Shown here: positions 4,127 to 34,436 of the stretch, piece after piece
Numbering within the stretch: the stretch's first letter is position 1
Layout: the number at the start of each line of letters is the position of its first letter
DNA from: Thermoplasmata archaeon
GTDB taxonomy: Archaea; Thermoplasmatota; Thermoplasmata; Lutacidiplasmatales; UBA184
Assembly: GCA_022749845.1 (NCBI GenBank)
Contig: JAKIWX010000009.1
Span: 1 to 37,149, forward strand
DNA length: 37,149 nt
Direction: 5' to 3'
Position numbers and translations under genes: made by a program
The notes under the pieces: model-generated
Database searches by the model: none
Told to the model about the DNA's origin: nothing
The model's input: only the letters and a program-made list of their open reading frames with translations

Positions 4127-4159
4127 GGAACTTGAATGCCGCGCCTGCCGGGTTTTACC

Positions 4160-7081
4160 ATGTTGGAGAAGTCGAGAGTTGTACGTCGAGTGGGATTCGT
4201 CGCAGTCGTAGCCGGTTTCTTGCTCCTTGCCTACGCCCCGGGACTCGTGGCCGGGATGACGGGAACGGTCTCACCGCCCGCTCACCTCGGCGTAGCGCAT
4301 CCGCGGCCGAACGTGGTCACCCCGTGCACCCTGTCGACCTTTGTGAGCGATGTGATGGCCGGGGGGCTGGTCCAGTTCGGAGGGCCGTGCACACTCACTC
4401 TCACTTCCGCCATCACGATTCCATACACCTTGTCGGTCACCATCACGTCGGGCGGGTTTGCGGTCACCCTGAGCGGCGGATACACGAACCAGCTGTTCAT
4501 CGTCAAGGGAGGCCACCTCACCATCTCGAACATCACACTTCAAGCCGGCCGGGTAACGGGAACCGCCGGCATCGCAGGAACGACGGGCAGCGCGGGCTCG
4601 CTCGGGTCGAACGGGGTCACTGGGACCAGTGGCACGGGGGGAACCGGCCAGGCCGGCGGCGCCGGCGGAGTCGGGACGAGCGGGGGGAGTGCCGGTGCGG
4701 GGACCAACGGGGCGTCCGGGACCGTCGCGAAGGGCGGTGCGATCATGATCCAGAACGGCACCGTCAACTTGATGGGTGACACGATCAATTCGAACGCCGC
4801 GACAGGCGGCGCCGGAGGATACGGCGCCTCCGGCGGCGCCGGCGGCTACGGCGGAACCGGTGGCCAGGGCGGCTTCGGAGGGAGCGCGGTCTCTCCCTCG
4901 AGCGGCTCGGGCGGTGCCGGGGGGGCTGGCGGCTCCGCAGGAGCCGGCGGGGCTGGCGGGAACGGCGGGAACGGCGGTGGCGGTGGAGCCGCGCTCGGAG
5001 GCGCGATCTACAATGGCGGGACGCTGAATCTCTCCGGCGACAGCTTCTCGAGCGACTCGGCTACCGGAGGGACCGGCGGGTACGGCGGGTCGGGGGGGTC
5101 CGGCGGTAGCGGCGGGTCTGGCGGTTATGGCGGCGGCGGCGGGACAGGCGGAACCCCGACCGGCAGCGGCACCGGGGGCACGGGGGGAGCGGCGGGCCCG
5201 AACGGTGCATGTGCCGTCGGCGGCAAGGCCGGGTCGGGTGGCGCCGGCGGTGTTGGTGGCGCGGGCCAGGGGGGCGCGATCTACAACGCGGGCAACCTCT
5301 CCATCAAGTCGACGACGTTCTACAATTCCTACGCCTACGGAGGTAGCGCGGGCGGAGGGGGGAGTGGCGTGGCCGGAGGCCCCGGTGGCACGGGAGTTGG
5401 TTCGTATCAGGCCGGCAGCGGAGGCACCGGTGGAACCCCCAGCTCCACGGGAGGTAGCGGGGGTGGCGGCGGCTCCGCCGGAGCGGCGAAGGCTGGATCG
5501 AACGGAGCGGCCGGGGGGGCTGGAGGCACCGGCGGCGCCGGCGGAGTCGGTGGCGCTGCCCAGGGCGGCGAGATCTACAATGTCGGCACGATCGTAGGCG
5601 ATTCGACCCTCTACCAGTACGGCCGCGTCTACGCTGGCACCGGCGGGAGCGGCGGCTACGGGGGCAACGGCGGCTACGGGGGCGCAGGCGGGGCGGGCGG
5701 CACGGGCGGTTCGGGTGGAGCCGGCGGGTCCGGCGCTGCTGGCTCGCTACCGGGGACCGGTGGGTCGGGTGCCTCGGGTGTCTCCGGGTCCGCTGCGGGT
5801 GTGCCCGGCGCAGGTGGCATGCCGGGAGTTACGGGGAACGGCGGTGCGGGTGGAGCCGGCGGGGCGGCGCAAGGCGGGTGCGTCTTCACCCTCGGTAGCC
5901 ATTCCTCCTTCCATGACAATAATTCGAGCTACACTTCCTGCAGCGCGACCGGCGGCACCGGTGCCTCCGGCGGCTCGGGCGGCGGCGGATACGGCGGCGC
6001 GACCGGGGGCGCAGGAGGACCCGGCGCGAACGGGGGGTCTGGAGGCTCGGGCGGGTCGAACAGCCCCGCAGAGAACGGAGGGACCGGTGCGGCCGGCCTT
6101 ACCGGAACGGCCGCGAAGGGCGGCGTTTCGGGAGGCAACGGTGGAGCCGGTCGTCCCGGTGGCGCCGGCGGAGCCGCGTTGGGCGGCGCCCTGTTTGCCG
6201 GCGGAAATACGACCATCACGAACGGGACCTTCTCCTATGACATCGCCACCGGGGGCGGCGGCGGAGCGGGCGGACCGGGGGGATCCGGCGGTGCGGGCGG
6301 CTACGGCGGCTCGGGCGGGAGCGGCGGCTACGGAGGCTCGGGTGGAAGCGGGGTCTCGGGCGGCACGGGCGGCCACGCTGGCGCGGGTGGCGCGGGGACA
6401 GCTGGCGGCATCGGAGCTGCTGGCGCGAAGGGTGGCAACGGCTCGGCTGGAGGAGCCGGCGGGCTCGCCGAGGGCGGCGCTCTCTACAGCCCGTTGTACA
6501 GCTCGACGACCCATCTGAGGCTCCTCGACGATTCCTTCACCTACAACGCGGCGGTCGGAGGCCAGGGTGCCACCGGCGGTCCCGGGTCCCCAGGCGGGGC
6601 GGGCGGCGCAGGGGGAAGCGGCGGCTACGGTGGATCCGGCTCGACGGGCGGCGGAGGCACCTCCGTCGGCAGCGGCGGAAAGGGTGGTAACGGCGGCAAC
6701 GGTGGGAGCGGCGGAAAGGGCGGGACCGGCGGCGGATCCGGCGCAGCAGGCAACGGAGGCAACGCGATCGGTGGGGCGATCTACAACGTGACCCCTGTGT
6801 ACTACGAGGTCGGTGTCACCTTTGCCGCGAACAGCGTCGTCGCCGGCAACGGGGGCGTAGACAACTGCGCCGCCGGGTCCGCGTGTCCCGGGACGGCGGG
6901 CGCCGGCGGGTCTGCGGGAGCGGGGACCACCGGAGGCACGGGAGGCACCGATGGGGCAGGGCACAACCGTCAGGCGAGCGGCACGACGGGCGTGGCCGGG
7001 TCCAAGGGGGCGAAGGGCTCGATCGGAGTGAACGGTCTCGGTGGCGTAGCAGGAATCGCCAAGGATCAGAACCAGAACTAG
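4160..7081 (+). CDS. Secreted glycine-rich beta-helix protein (PE_PGRS-like repeats)
   Basis: The product has 973 residues from ATG 4160. It begins with a basic stretch and a hydrophobic signal segment (FVAVVAGFLLLAYAPGLVAG). Residues about 50-130 look like the first rungs of a right-handed parallel beta-helix (VTITSGGFAVTLSGG, LTISNITLQAG). The rest alternates eight times between a short rung-like unit of the type GGAIYN-x-GTLNLSGDSFSSDSATGG and 60-75 residues of GGxGG runs with Ala, Ser, Asn and Tyr. The GGAIYN...S...A pattern is known from polymorphic outer-membrane and autotransporter beta-helices. The GGxGG runs resemble mycobacterial PGRS sequence. No C-terminal membrane helix or sorting signal is visible, so the protein is probably released or held in the cell envelope. 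The role is unknown; adhesion, matrix or ice/ligand binding are only possibilities. It has its own promoter and no operon partner. Confidence 0.8.
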   Translation: MLEKSRVVRRVGFVAVVAGFLLLAYAPGLVAGMTGTVSPPAHLGVAHPRPNVVTPCTLSTFVSDVMAGGLVQFGGPCTLTLTSAITIPYTLSVTITSGGFAVTLSGGYTNQLFIVKGGHLTISNITLQAGRVTGTAGIAGTTGSAGSLGSNGVTGTSGTGGTGQAGGAGGVGTSGGSAGAGTNGASGTVAKGGAIMIQNGTVNLMGDTINSNAATGGAGGYGASGGAGGYGGTGGQGGFGGSAVSPSSGSGGAGGAGGSAGAGGAGGNGGNGGGGGAALGGAIYNGGTLNLSGDSFSSDSATGGTGGYGGSGGSGGSGGSGGYGGGGGTGGTPTGSGTGGTGGAAGPNGACAVGGKAGSGGAGGVGGAGQGGAIYNAGNLSIKSTTFYNSYAYGGSAGGGGSGVAGGPGGTGVGSYQAGSGGTGGTPSSTGGSGGGGGSAGAAKAGSNGAAGGAGGTGGAGGVGGAAQGGEIYNVGTIVGDSTLYQYGRVYAGTGGSGGYGGNGGYGGAGGAGGTGGSGGAGGSGAAGSLPGTGGSGASGVSGSAAGVPGAGGMPGVTGNGGAGGAGGAAQGGCVFTLGSHSSFHDNNSSYTSCSATGGTGASGGSGGGGYGGATGGAGGPGANGGSGGSGGSNSPAENGGTGAAGLTGTAAKGGVSGGNGGAGRPGGAGGAALGGALFAGGNTTITNGTFSYDIATGGGGGAGGPGGSGGAGGYGGSGGSGGYGGSGGSGVSGGTGGHAGAGGAGTAGGIGAAGAKGGNGSAGGAGGLAEGGALYSPLYSSTTHLRLLDDSFTYNAAVGGQGATGGPGSPGGAGGAGGSGGYGGSGSTGGGGTSVGSGGKGGNGGNGGSGGKGGTGGGSGAAGNGGNAIGGAIYNVTPVYYEVGVTFAANSVVAGNGGVDNCAAGSACPGTAGAGGSAGAGTTGGTGGTDGAGHNRQASGTTGVAGSKGAKGSIGVNGLGGVAGIAKDQNQN
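4735..6810 (+). repeat. About eight-unit glycine-rich coding repeat, period roughly 275-305 bp
   Basis: The rung-like motif (GGAIMIQNG, GGAIYN, GGEIYN, GGCVFT, GGALFA, GGALYS, GGAIYN) starts near 4735, 4999, 5275, 5569, 5875, 6182, 6475 and 6772. Between these positions the DNA is dominated by GGC/GGN codons. The unit length varies by about 10 codons, so the repeats have diverged and are not a recent tandem amplification. The minus strand over this region shows long spurious open frames. Confidence 0.75.
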
Positions 7082-29418: not shown

Positions 29419-29449
29419 GAAGGGGGCTATGGACACGGGGGGATTTGAA
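29419..29449 (-). repeat. tRNA-Ala 3' end copy of the direct repeat
   Basis: Right-hand partner of the repeat at 27888-27918. It spans the tRNA acceptor and T-loop 3' half (29430-29449) and 11 bases of flanking DNA (29419-29429). Confidence 0.55.
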
Positions 29450-29501
29450 CCCCCGACCTCTGCTTTGCGAAAGCAGCGATCTTCCGCTGATCTACGTGCC
29501 C
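29430..29501 (-). tRNA. tRNA-Ala (anticodon CGC)
   Basis: A complete cloverleaf without intron. The acceptor GGGCACG/CGTGTCC contains the G3-U70 wobble pair that is the alanine identity element. The D-stem is GATC/GATC, the anticodon stem CTGCT/AGCAG with loop TTCGCAA (anticodon CGC), the T-stem GGGGG/CCCCC with loop TTCAAAT, and the discriminator A. CCA is not encoded. It reads GCG codons. Its 3' end faces the putative island. Confidence 0.95.
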
Positions 29502-33176: not shown

Positions 33177-33183
33177 CTTATAG
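33177..33183 (+). promoter_or_regulatory. TATA box of the tRNA-Gln/tRNA-Leu pair
   Basis: CTTATAG, centred 28 nt before the first base of tRNA-Gln. No TATA-like element is seen in the 33 bases between the two tRNAs, so they are probably one transcript. Confidence 0.6.
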
Positions 33184-33207: not shown

Positions 33208-33314
33208 AGCCCCGTAGTGTAGTGGCCAATCATGCGAGACTCTGGATCTCGCGACGCAGGTTCGAAGGAGGTCGGCGTCGCACGCGCCGGTCCCCGAAAC
33301 TCCTGCCGGGGCTA
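33208..33314 (+). tRNA. tRNA-Gln (anticodon CTG) with a T-loop intron
   Basis: Acceptor AGCCCCG (33208-33214) pairs with CGGGGCT (33307-33313), discriminator A. The anticodon stem CGAGA/TCTCG encloses loop CTCTGGA (anticodon CTG at 33242-33244). T-stem GCAGG (33256-33260) pairs with CCTGC (33302-33306), but 41 bases lie between them instead of seven. Removing 33267-33300 (34 nt) restores the consensus T-loop TTCGAAT. The D-arm (GTGT, AGTGG) matches archaeal tRNA-Gln. The mature length is 73 nt; CCA is not encoded. The intron lies between positions 59 and 60. A standard scan may miss this gene or mis-place its 3' end. Confidence 0.92.
33267..33300 (+). other. tRNA-Gln intron, position 59/60, bulge-helix-bulge
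   Basis: The 34-nt intron forms a full BHB. The outer helix is the T-stem. The central 4-bp helix is TTCG (33261-33264) with CGAA (33295-33298). The 5' bulge is AAG (33265-33267) and the 3' bulge ACT (33299-33301). The inner helix is 33268-33277 with 33285-33294, including one A-C mismatch, and closes a 7-nt loop. Cutting after the second base of each bulge gives the consensus T-loop. Confidence 0.88.
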
Positions 33315-33371
33315 CTCCGGCGGCCTCCTCCCTCACCTCTTTCCGCTGCGGGGGTGCTCCAGTTCGGCCAA

Positions 33372-33401
33372 GGCGGACTCCCTACCGGGAGCCGCGGCCA
33401 C
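33372..33401 (+). other. tRNA-Leu intron 1 (D-loop, about position 21/22), bulge-helix-bulge
   Basis: The 30-nt intron. The outer helix is TTC (33363-33365) with GAG (33403-33405). The central helix is GGCC (33366-33369) with GGCC (33396-33399). The 5' bulge is AAG (33370-33372) and the 3' bulge ACC (33400-33402). The inner helix 33373-33382 pairs with 33387-33395 with a single bulged A and a TACC loop. Splicing after the second base of each bulge gives the standard leucine D-loop. Confidence 0.85.
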
Positions 33402-33449
33402 CGAGGCAGGGCTTAGGACCCTGTTGCCCAGGGCATTCGCCGGTTCAAA

Positions 33450-33481
33450 CGCGTACGGGGCGAGCGCTCCGTCGCTGGAAC
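33450..33481 (+). other. tRNA-Leu intron 2 (T-loop, position 59/60), bulge-helix-bulge
   Basis: The 32-nt intron. The outer helix is the T-stem. The central helix is TTCA (33444-33447) with TGGA (33476-33479), one wobble pair. The 5' bulge is AAC (33448-33450) and the 3' bulge ACT (33480-33482). The inner helix starts GCG/CGC (33451-33453 with 33473-33475), has one bulged T, and continues to a GAGC loop. The insertion site is the same as in the neighbouring tRNA-Gln. Confidence 0.87.
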
Positions 33482-33524
33482 TCCGGCCCCCCGCAGCCCG
33501 CCTAGTGCACGGGACCTAGCTGCC

Positions 33525-34436
33525 GTGCCCGACGCTGCCCCCTCGTCGGTGCTGGCCCCTCGGGAGATCCTCCGTCTCGAGCCGGGGCAGGCGGACGACC
33601 TGCTCGACCGGCTAGAGGCGGAGGTGCCGGTCGCGACCGGTACCGTGGAGCTGCCCGGGCCTCCCGCGGTGGATGCGATCGTCATCGGAGACACGCACGG
33701 CGACTGGGCGAGTACGTTGGCGGCCACCAGCAGGTTCCTCGAGGCGCCGGGGGAACGCTGCTTCGTCGGCCTCGGGGATTACATCGACCGGCCGCCGGAC
33801 GATTGCCCGAACGGCTCCGTCGCGAACCTCCTCTACCTGCTTTCGCTCCGGGCCGCGTTCCCGGACCGGGTCGTGCTGATCCAGGGGAACCACGAGACGA
33901 CCCGACGGTTCCCCGTAGTACCCCACTCCCTCCCGGAGGAGGTGGACGACCTCTGGGGCCCCGATGAGGATCGGTACTCGCGGCTCATGGGGCTCGCCGA
34001 GCGAGGGCCGTACGCGGCGATCTCCCCGAGCGGGGTCTACCTCGCGCACGCCGGCTTTCCTATCGAAGGCCCGGCGCGACGTTGGCGGGAGAGCCTAGAG
34101 GAAGGGGCCGACGCTCCCGTGCTCGACGCCGTCTGGCGCTCCGCCGACGCTTCCCGGCTCGACCGCGGGTTCATCTCCTCCTTCACCGAGGCGGAGCTGG
34201 ACAAGTTCCTCGATGAGATCGGGGCGTCGGTCTTCCTGAGGGGCCACGACCCGGACCTCACCGGCCGCCCGGCCTACCACGGTCGCCTCCTCACGCTGCA
34301 CACCTCCCGGGTCTACGAGCTCTACGGCGGCGTGCTGCTCGCGCACATCCCGCTCGACCATCCTGTGCGCTCGGTCGCCGAGCTCCGTGTGGAGCACCTC
34401 GAGACCGAGACGAAACGTAGGAACCCCACCGGCTAG
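33525..34436 (+). CDS. PPP-type metallophosphatase (calcineurin-like)
   Basis: The 303-residue cytoplasmic protein starts at GTG 33525, 29 bases after tRNA-Leu. All metal-binding motifs of the PPP serine/threonine phosphatase family are present: GDTHGD (residues 55-60), GDYIDRP (84-90), GNHE (121-124), LAHAG (174-178) and a late GHDPD. Two metal ions activate water for phosphoester hydrolysis; the substrate is probably a phosphoprotein, though small phosphate esters are possible. The first 45 residues precede the fold. The gene converges on tsr3, with stop codons overlapping at 34433-34436 (CTAG). Confidence 0.92.
   Translation: MPDAAPSSVLAPREILRLEPGQADDLLDRLEAEVPVATGTVELPGPPAVDAIVIGDTHGDWASTLAATSRFLEAPGERCFVGLGDYIDRPPDDCPNGSVANLLYLLSLRAAFPDRVVLIQGNHETTRRFPVVPHSLPEEVDDLWGPDEDRYSRLMGLAERGPYAAISPSGVYLAHAGFPIEGPARRWRESLEEGADAPVLDAVWRSADASRLDRGFISSFTEAELDKFLDEIGASVFLRGHDPDLTGRPAYHGRLLTLHTSRVYELYGGVLLAHIPLDHPVRSVAELRVEHLETETKRRNPTG

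Follow-up and report, generated by a model that had tools for sequence, protein, structure and literature searches.

A tRNA-Leu(UAG) gene with two non-canonical introns in a Thermoplasmata archaeon and the endonuclease that may process it

The locus described here, from an uncultured soil archaeon, raises the question of whether a leucine tRNA gene that standard tools do not recognise is a working gene split by two introns, and which enzyme could remove them. A sequence-only reading of the window (the whole 37,149-nt stretch of DNA analysed) had proposed a tRNA-Leu(TAG) of 86 nt after splicing, with one intron in the D-loop and one in the T-loop, and had called this arrangement unusual for a Thermoplasmata-like genome. 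Multiple-intron tRNAs have been listed for Crenarchaeota, Nanoarchaeum, Methanopyrus, Methanothermobacter, Korarchaeum and ARMAN (PMC4033280), and Asgard soil archaea were added to the holders of intron-rich tRNAs in 2024 (PMC11291895). A literature search, with subscription journals largely outside it, returned no relevant report of tRNA introns in Thermoplasmata or Thermoplasmatota. The kind of gene is already known from other archaea.

Intron-rich archaeal tRNAs have so far been linked to endonucleases with special loops (PMC6379350, PMC12397907). The (alphabeta)2 and epsilon-2 forms of EndA, with their CSL/ASL loops, are reviewed as broad in specificity (PMC6379350, PMC12397907), and the alpha'2 form as narrow (PMC6379350, PMC4033280).

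Gene architecture and splice motifs

Removal of both introns from positions 33348-33495 leaves one complete tRNA of 86 nt with a defined anticodon, called tRNA-Leu(tag) by ARAGORN, so that the gene qualifies as a multiple-intron tRNA, as the sequence-only reading had proposed. No tRNA-Leu was returned by ARAGORN from the unspliced precursor or from a precursor relieved of one intron, nor did the precursor give a tRNA match in Rfam. In the unspliced 37-kb window, the sole tRNA detected by either Rfam or ARAGORN is an unrelated tRNA-Ala (29430-29501). Exon 2 carries the anticodon arm CAGGG-CTTAGGA-CCCTG. Both introns are non-canonical, lying at 21/22 and 59/60 and neither at 37/38, with junctions set by intron-minus orthologs (Table 1); 59/60 is a listed archaeal tRNA intron site (PMC4090602). 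Elsewhere in the window, a 981-aa open frame (4136-7081) has a hydrophobic N-terminal segment followed mostly by Gly/Ala-rich repeats.

Table 1. Features of the tRNA-Gln-tRNA-Leu locus (window positions; intron sites in the numbering used here)
Feature	Position	Strand	Basis
TATA-like box CTTATA, 31 nt 5' of tRNA-Gln	33177..33182	+	
tRNA-Gln(CUG), interrupted, ~34 nt 5' of the Leu gene	33208..33314	+	BHB removal, ARAGORN
tRNA-Gln T-loop intron, 34 nt, 59/60; central helix TTCG/CGAA	33267..33300	+	
tRNA-Leu(UAG) exon 1 (acceptor 5' strand, D-arm 5' part, D-loop to A21)	33348..33371	+	ARAGORN on spliced sequence
D-loop intron, 30 nt, 21/22	33372..33401	+	BHB scan and covariation
tRNA-Leu(UAG) exon 2 (D-stem 3' strand, anticodon arm, variable arm, T-stem 5' strand, TTCAAA)	33402..33449	+	
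T-loop intron, 32 nt, 59/60	33450..33481	+	BHB scan and intron-minus orthologs
tRNA-Leu(UAG) exon 3 (T60, T-stem and acceptor 3' strands, discriminator A)	33482..33495	+	ARAGORN

Both introns sit in a strict BHB motif, with a 3-nt bulge, a 4-bp helix and a 3-nt bulge, the geometry that had been described from the letters alone. At the D-loop, the 5' exon reads GGCC-AA^G and the intron 3' end GGCC-AC^C (carets mark the borders), forming a GGCC/GGCC central helix flanked by the intron stem GCGG/CCGC and the outer exon helix TTC/GAG. This outer helix counts against the proposed splicing, being of 3 bp only, in competition with the D-stem of the mature tRNA (CTC/GAG) and broken in one relative (L046). 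At the T-loop, TTCA-AA^C and TGGA-AC^T form the central helix TTCA/TGGA, with the T-stem as outer helix and an intron stem GCG/CGC.

A blind scan for strict BHB motifs required 4 central, 3 intron-stem and 3 exon pairs, and candidates were removed singly and in pairs before submission to ARAGORN. Four candidate introns in the local region led to a single tRNA result, the Leu intron pair, which was also the only strict-BHB result giving a tRNA on both strands of the 37-kb window. The scan and the junctions of intron-minus orthologs agree with the intron borders first proposed.

Orthologs, covariation and the need for the gene

Thirteen syntenic loci from Thermoplasmata MAGs were retrieved through the protein gene located 3' of tRNA-Leu (33525-34436). 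Several of these MAGs bear acid-soil names of the AcS/SubAcS type, and a study of Lutacidiplasmatales includes AcS3-62 (PMC9287336); the match of names suggests assignment to that order. The gene order, consisting of a tRNA-Gln(CUG) with a T-loop intron, the tRNA-Leu(UAG) and the same protein gene, is found in 13/13 loci. Across them, the Leu exons retain 95-99% identity to those of the window, and intron identity falls to 27-83% (D-loop) and 17-66% (T-loop). Pairing in the intron stems persists nonetheless: among 24 distinct introns of each type, positions 1-5 of the stem are paired in 107/120 cells for the D-loop intron and 98/120 for the T-loop intron, versus averages of 64.7 and 71.9 in shuffles; for neither intron did any of 2000 shuffles match the observed pairing. 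Compensatory changes involve up to five pair types per position, and because intron identity is so low, inflation of the shuffle test by kinship is a minor worry.

Orthologs lacking one or both introns fix the junctions. Only the D-loop intron is absent from L054 and L057 (the latter in G065), where exon 1 runs straight into exon 2 and the sequence GGCCAA-CGAGG reproduces the predicted junction exactly. The D-loop intron is present and the T-loop uninterrupted in L086 (genus g5) and L088 (g4), TTCGAATCC. Both introns are absent from three loci of genus g3 (L061, L062, L064), which ARAGORN calls tRNA-Leu(tag) and which score 50-52 bits as tRNA in Rfam, with anticodon TAG; the T-loop of all five of these genes is TTCAAAT or TTCGAAT. 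More distantly, tRNA-Leu(UAG) has just one intron, of 13 nt in the T-loop, in another family of the order (G137), has neither intron in a further family (G087, G094), and is uninterrupted in nine Thermoplasmata genomes outside the order, read by sequence. G137 also holds a tRNA-Leu(UAA) that seems to contain three introns, in the D-loop, the anticodon loop and the T-loop (13 nt; L089, G137:C19:39700-40200, minus strand).

The upstream tRNA-Gln(CUG) escapes detection in the same manner, being missed by ARAGORN and scoring only 18.4 bits in Rfam when unspliced; removal of its BHB intron gives a tRNA-Gln(ctg) of 74 nt in ARAGORN. Its T-loop introns, 13 distinct ones, are all 34 nt long, each with 4/4 central pairs. 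Twelve further loci have a TATA-like box at a similar distance (-31 to -33), and none was seen in the Gln-Leu spacer (28-37 nt across loci), so a single transcript is probable and the two genes would form a dicistron. A sigma-70 promoter and terminator scan, a search ill-suited to archaea, gave nothing.

The window's own MAG measures 1.83 Mb in 159 contigs and is 88.5% complete. Its tRNA matches include Leu CAA, GAG, TAA and CAG and no second Leu(TAG), and the relative G009, rated 100% complete, likewise has no second Leu(TAG) match. CTA codons are in use (15 in eight ORFs checked). With no other TAG found, the gene is probably needed and would have to be spliced, and it is probably the only CUA-reading tRNA of the cell.

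The splicing endonuclease and competing explanations

EndA is encoded in the same genome by one open frame on contig C105 with two PF01974 domains, and most of the protein can be aligned with Archaeoglobus alpha'2 EndA (1r0v/2gjw). Tyr, His and Lys are the catalytic residues of the EndA family. This triad occurs only in the C-terminal unit of the C105 protein and is conserved in 22 aligned homologues of the order. As far as type can be read from sequence, alignment to solved alpha'2 enzymes settles the assignment to the two-domain, single-chain alpha'2 class. In 40/41 genomes of the order, PF01974 is matched exactly twice, by adjacent segments of a single frame. Relative to Archaeoglobus EndA, neither the C105 protein nor its 22 relatives has a CSL/ASL-like insertion at the inferred loop position; the lysine-bearing loop near the active site that marks broad-specificity enzymes is thus lacking from the C105 EndA.

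In the proposed course of events, the tRNA-Leu(UAG) precursor would be transcribed along with tRNA-Gln(CUG), and four nucleotides at the end of each 5' exon (GGCC; TTCA) would pair with the intron 3' ends, each motif being closed by an exon helix on one side and an intron hairpin on the other. The alpha'2 EndA would then cut after the second nucleotide of both bulges, and a ligase would join the exons. In other archaea, the exon-joining ligase is RtcB.

Three other explanations have to be weighed. The gene could be a decaying pseudogene with two insertions, CUA being read by another tRNA: the unspliced gene is unrecognised by standard tools, and since its MAG is incomplete, an intact Leu(UAG) copy could be missing from it. 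This is strongly disfavoured by exons conserved across 13 loci beside divergent introns with compensatory pairing, by introns placed exactly at the junctions which intron-minus orthologs define, and by G009, complete by its rating and without another Leu(TAG) match, so that we regard a pseudogene as very improbable. An artefact of assembly, or a cloverleaf arising by chance, is less credible still. The contig is metagenome-assembled and high in G+C, but an artefact is already refuted by MAGs of several sources that were assembled independently and share the architecture, and chance is countered by the scan, which produced no further result in the window and a spliced tRNA in 0/300 dinucleotide shuffles of the region. 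On comparative evidence, the gene is functional.

The explanation with more in its favour, though still unlikely, holds that the introns are real and that their removal needs an undetected second EndA subunit or an accessory factor acting with EndA. It arises from the T-loop introns of most relatives, where G stands opposite A57 in 21/24 orthologous Leu introns, leaving a 3-bp central helix and an A-G mismatch said to be unacceptable to alpha'2 enzymes, reviewed as they are as narrow (PMC6379350, PMC4033280); in the own genome, 6/11 T-loop introns have only 3/4 central pairs. Against it stand the single two-domain chain in nearly all genomes of the order, the lack of a CSL/ASL-like insertion, and the strictness of both window motifs, for which a narrow enzyme would be enough. 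Either the helix end beside the bulge can accommodate the A-G mismatch, or the specificity of this EndA exceeds that of its relatives. We consider it very probable that the locus holds a functional tRNA-Leu(UAG), probably the sole reader of CUA and co-transcribed with tRNA-Gln(CUG), whose two BHB introns would be cut by the alpha'2 EndA.

Intron spread in the lineage and comparison with known systems

About 11 tRNAs of the own genome, roughly a third of the set, are interrupted in the T-loop at one common position: Leu UAG, Gln CUG, Asn GUU, Arg UCU, Arg UCG, Glu CUC, Gly UCC, Asp GUC, Ser GCU, Ser CGA and Ser GGA. Introns at 59/60 in Asn, Arg, Glu, Ser, Gly and Asp tRNAs lie at loci L027, L028, L029 and L031-L036, the Asn GUU intron being called from the T-stem parse alone. 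G009 has 13 T-loop introns, and such introns occur throughout most of the family. D-loop introns were read by eye in two further tRNAs: the initiator tRNA-Met, with a CAGG/CCTG BHB (L019, 1501-1605, minus strand; also L134 in G009), and tRNA-Arg(GCG), where an apparent intron precedes G18G19, with GTAGCT before it and TGGATT after it (L030, ~1455-1565; also L142 in G009, minus strand). ARAGORN misplaces some introns, e.g. that of the initiator tRNA-Met, and such borders were re-read from the sequence. Measured by the published record consulted here, the view that such a gene is unusual in a Thermoplasmata-like genome is right, but within the lineage these introns are the norm; among its group the two-intron Leu gene is nothing out of the ordinary, and the lineage-wide spread alongside an alpha'2 enzyme is of more interest.

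The universal T-loop sequence TTCRAA gives four paired and two bulge nucleotides of the splice motif, so any tRNA could host a T-loop intron, and this supply is the likely reason for the popularity of 59/60. Intron transposition between tRNAs is a conceivable source of shared intron 3' ends, but the need to pair with TTCR would lead to such ends in any case.

One possibility, put forward here tentatively, is that non-canonical tRNA introns multiplied independently in Lutacidiplasmatales-related archaea, chiefly at a single T-loop site, and that these archaea retained an alpha'2 EndA which has no such loop and tolerates the A-G mismatch. If true, the proposed rule tying intron expansions to (alphabeta)2 or epsilon-2 enzymes with CSL/ASL loops would no longer hold; since a whole group combines introns in the D-loop and T-loop with a two-domain EndA devoid of the loop, the link between loop and introns is directly testable. 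On the practical side, ordinary tools overlook some of these tRNAs (Leu-UAG, Gln-CUG, several Ser and Arg), which can then be scored absent, distorting completeness and codon-reading analyses of the group's genomes.

Among known systems, Thermoproteales share several BHB introns per tRNA at non-canonical positions, with 59/60 among the known sites (PMC4090602); tRNA-Pro(UGG) of Pyrobaculum islandicum, for example, has introns at 25/26 and 56/57 and a canonical one (PMC4090602). Crenarchaeota, however, have an (alphabeta)2 EndA with a Crenarchaea-specific loop and often relaxed motifs, whereas the enzyme here is alpha'2 by its sequence and loop-less, and the motifs of the window are strict. ARMAN-1 and ARMAN-2 (Micrarchaeota) resemble the present case in their non-canonical introns and single-chain EndA (PMC12397907, PMC4033280), but their epsilon-2 enzyme has three units and an ARMAN-specific loop, neither of which is seen here. 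The Asgard Atabeyarchaeia and Freyarchaeia are likewise soil archaea with non-canonical positions and multiple introns per tRNA (PMC11291895); in them 92-95% of tRNAs are interrupted, against roughly a third here, mostly at one T-loop site. In the enzyme, the likeness is to the alpha'2 EndA known from Archaeoglobus fulgidus and from Thermoplasma acidophilum, a two-domain chain with the triad in the C-terminal unit (PMC6379350); those enzymes are reviewed as narrow and confined to the strict BHB, whereas the present one belongs to a lineage rich in D-loop and T-loop introns.
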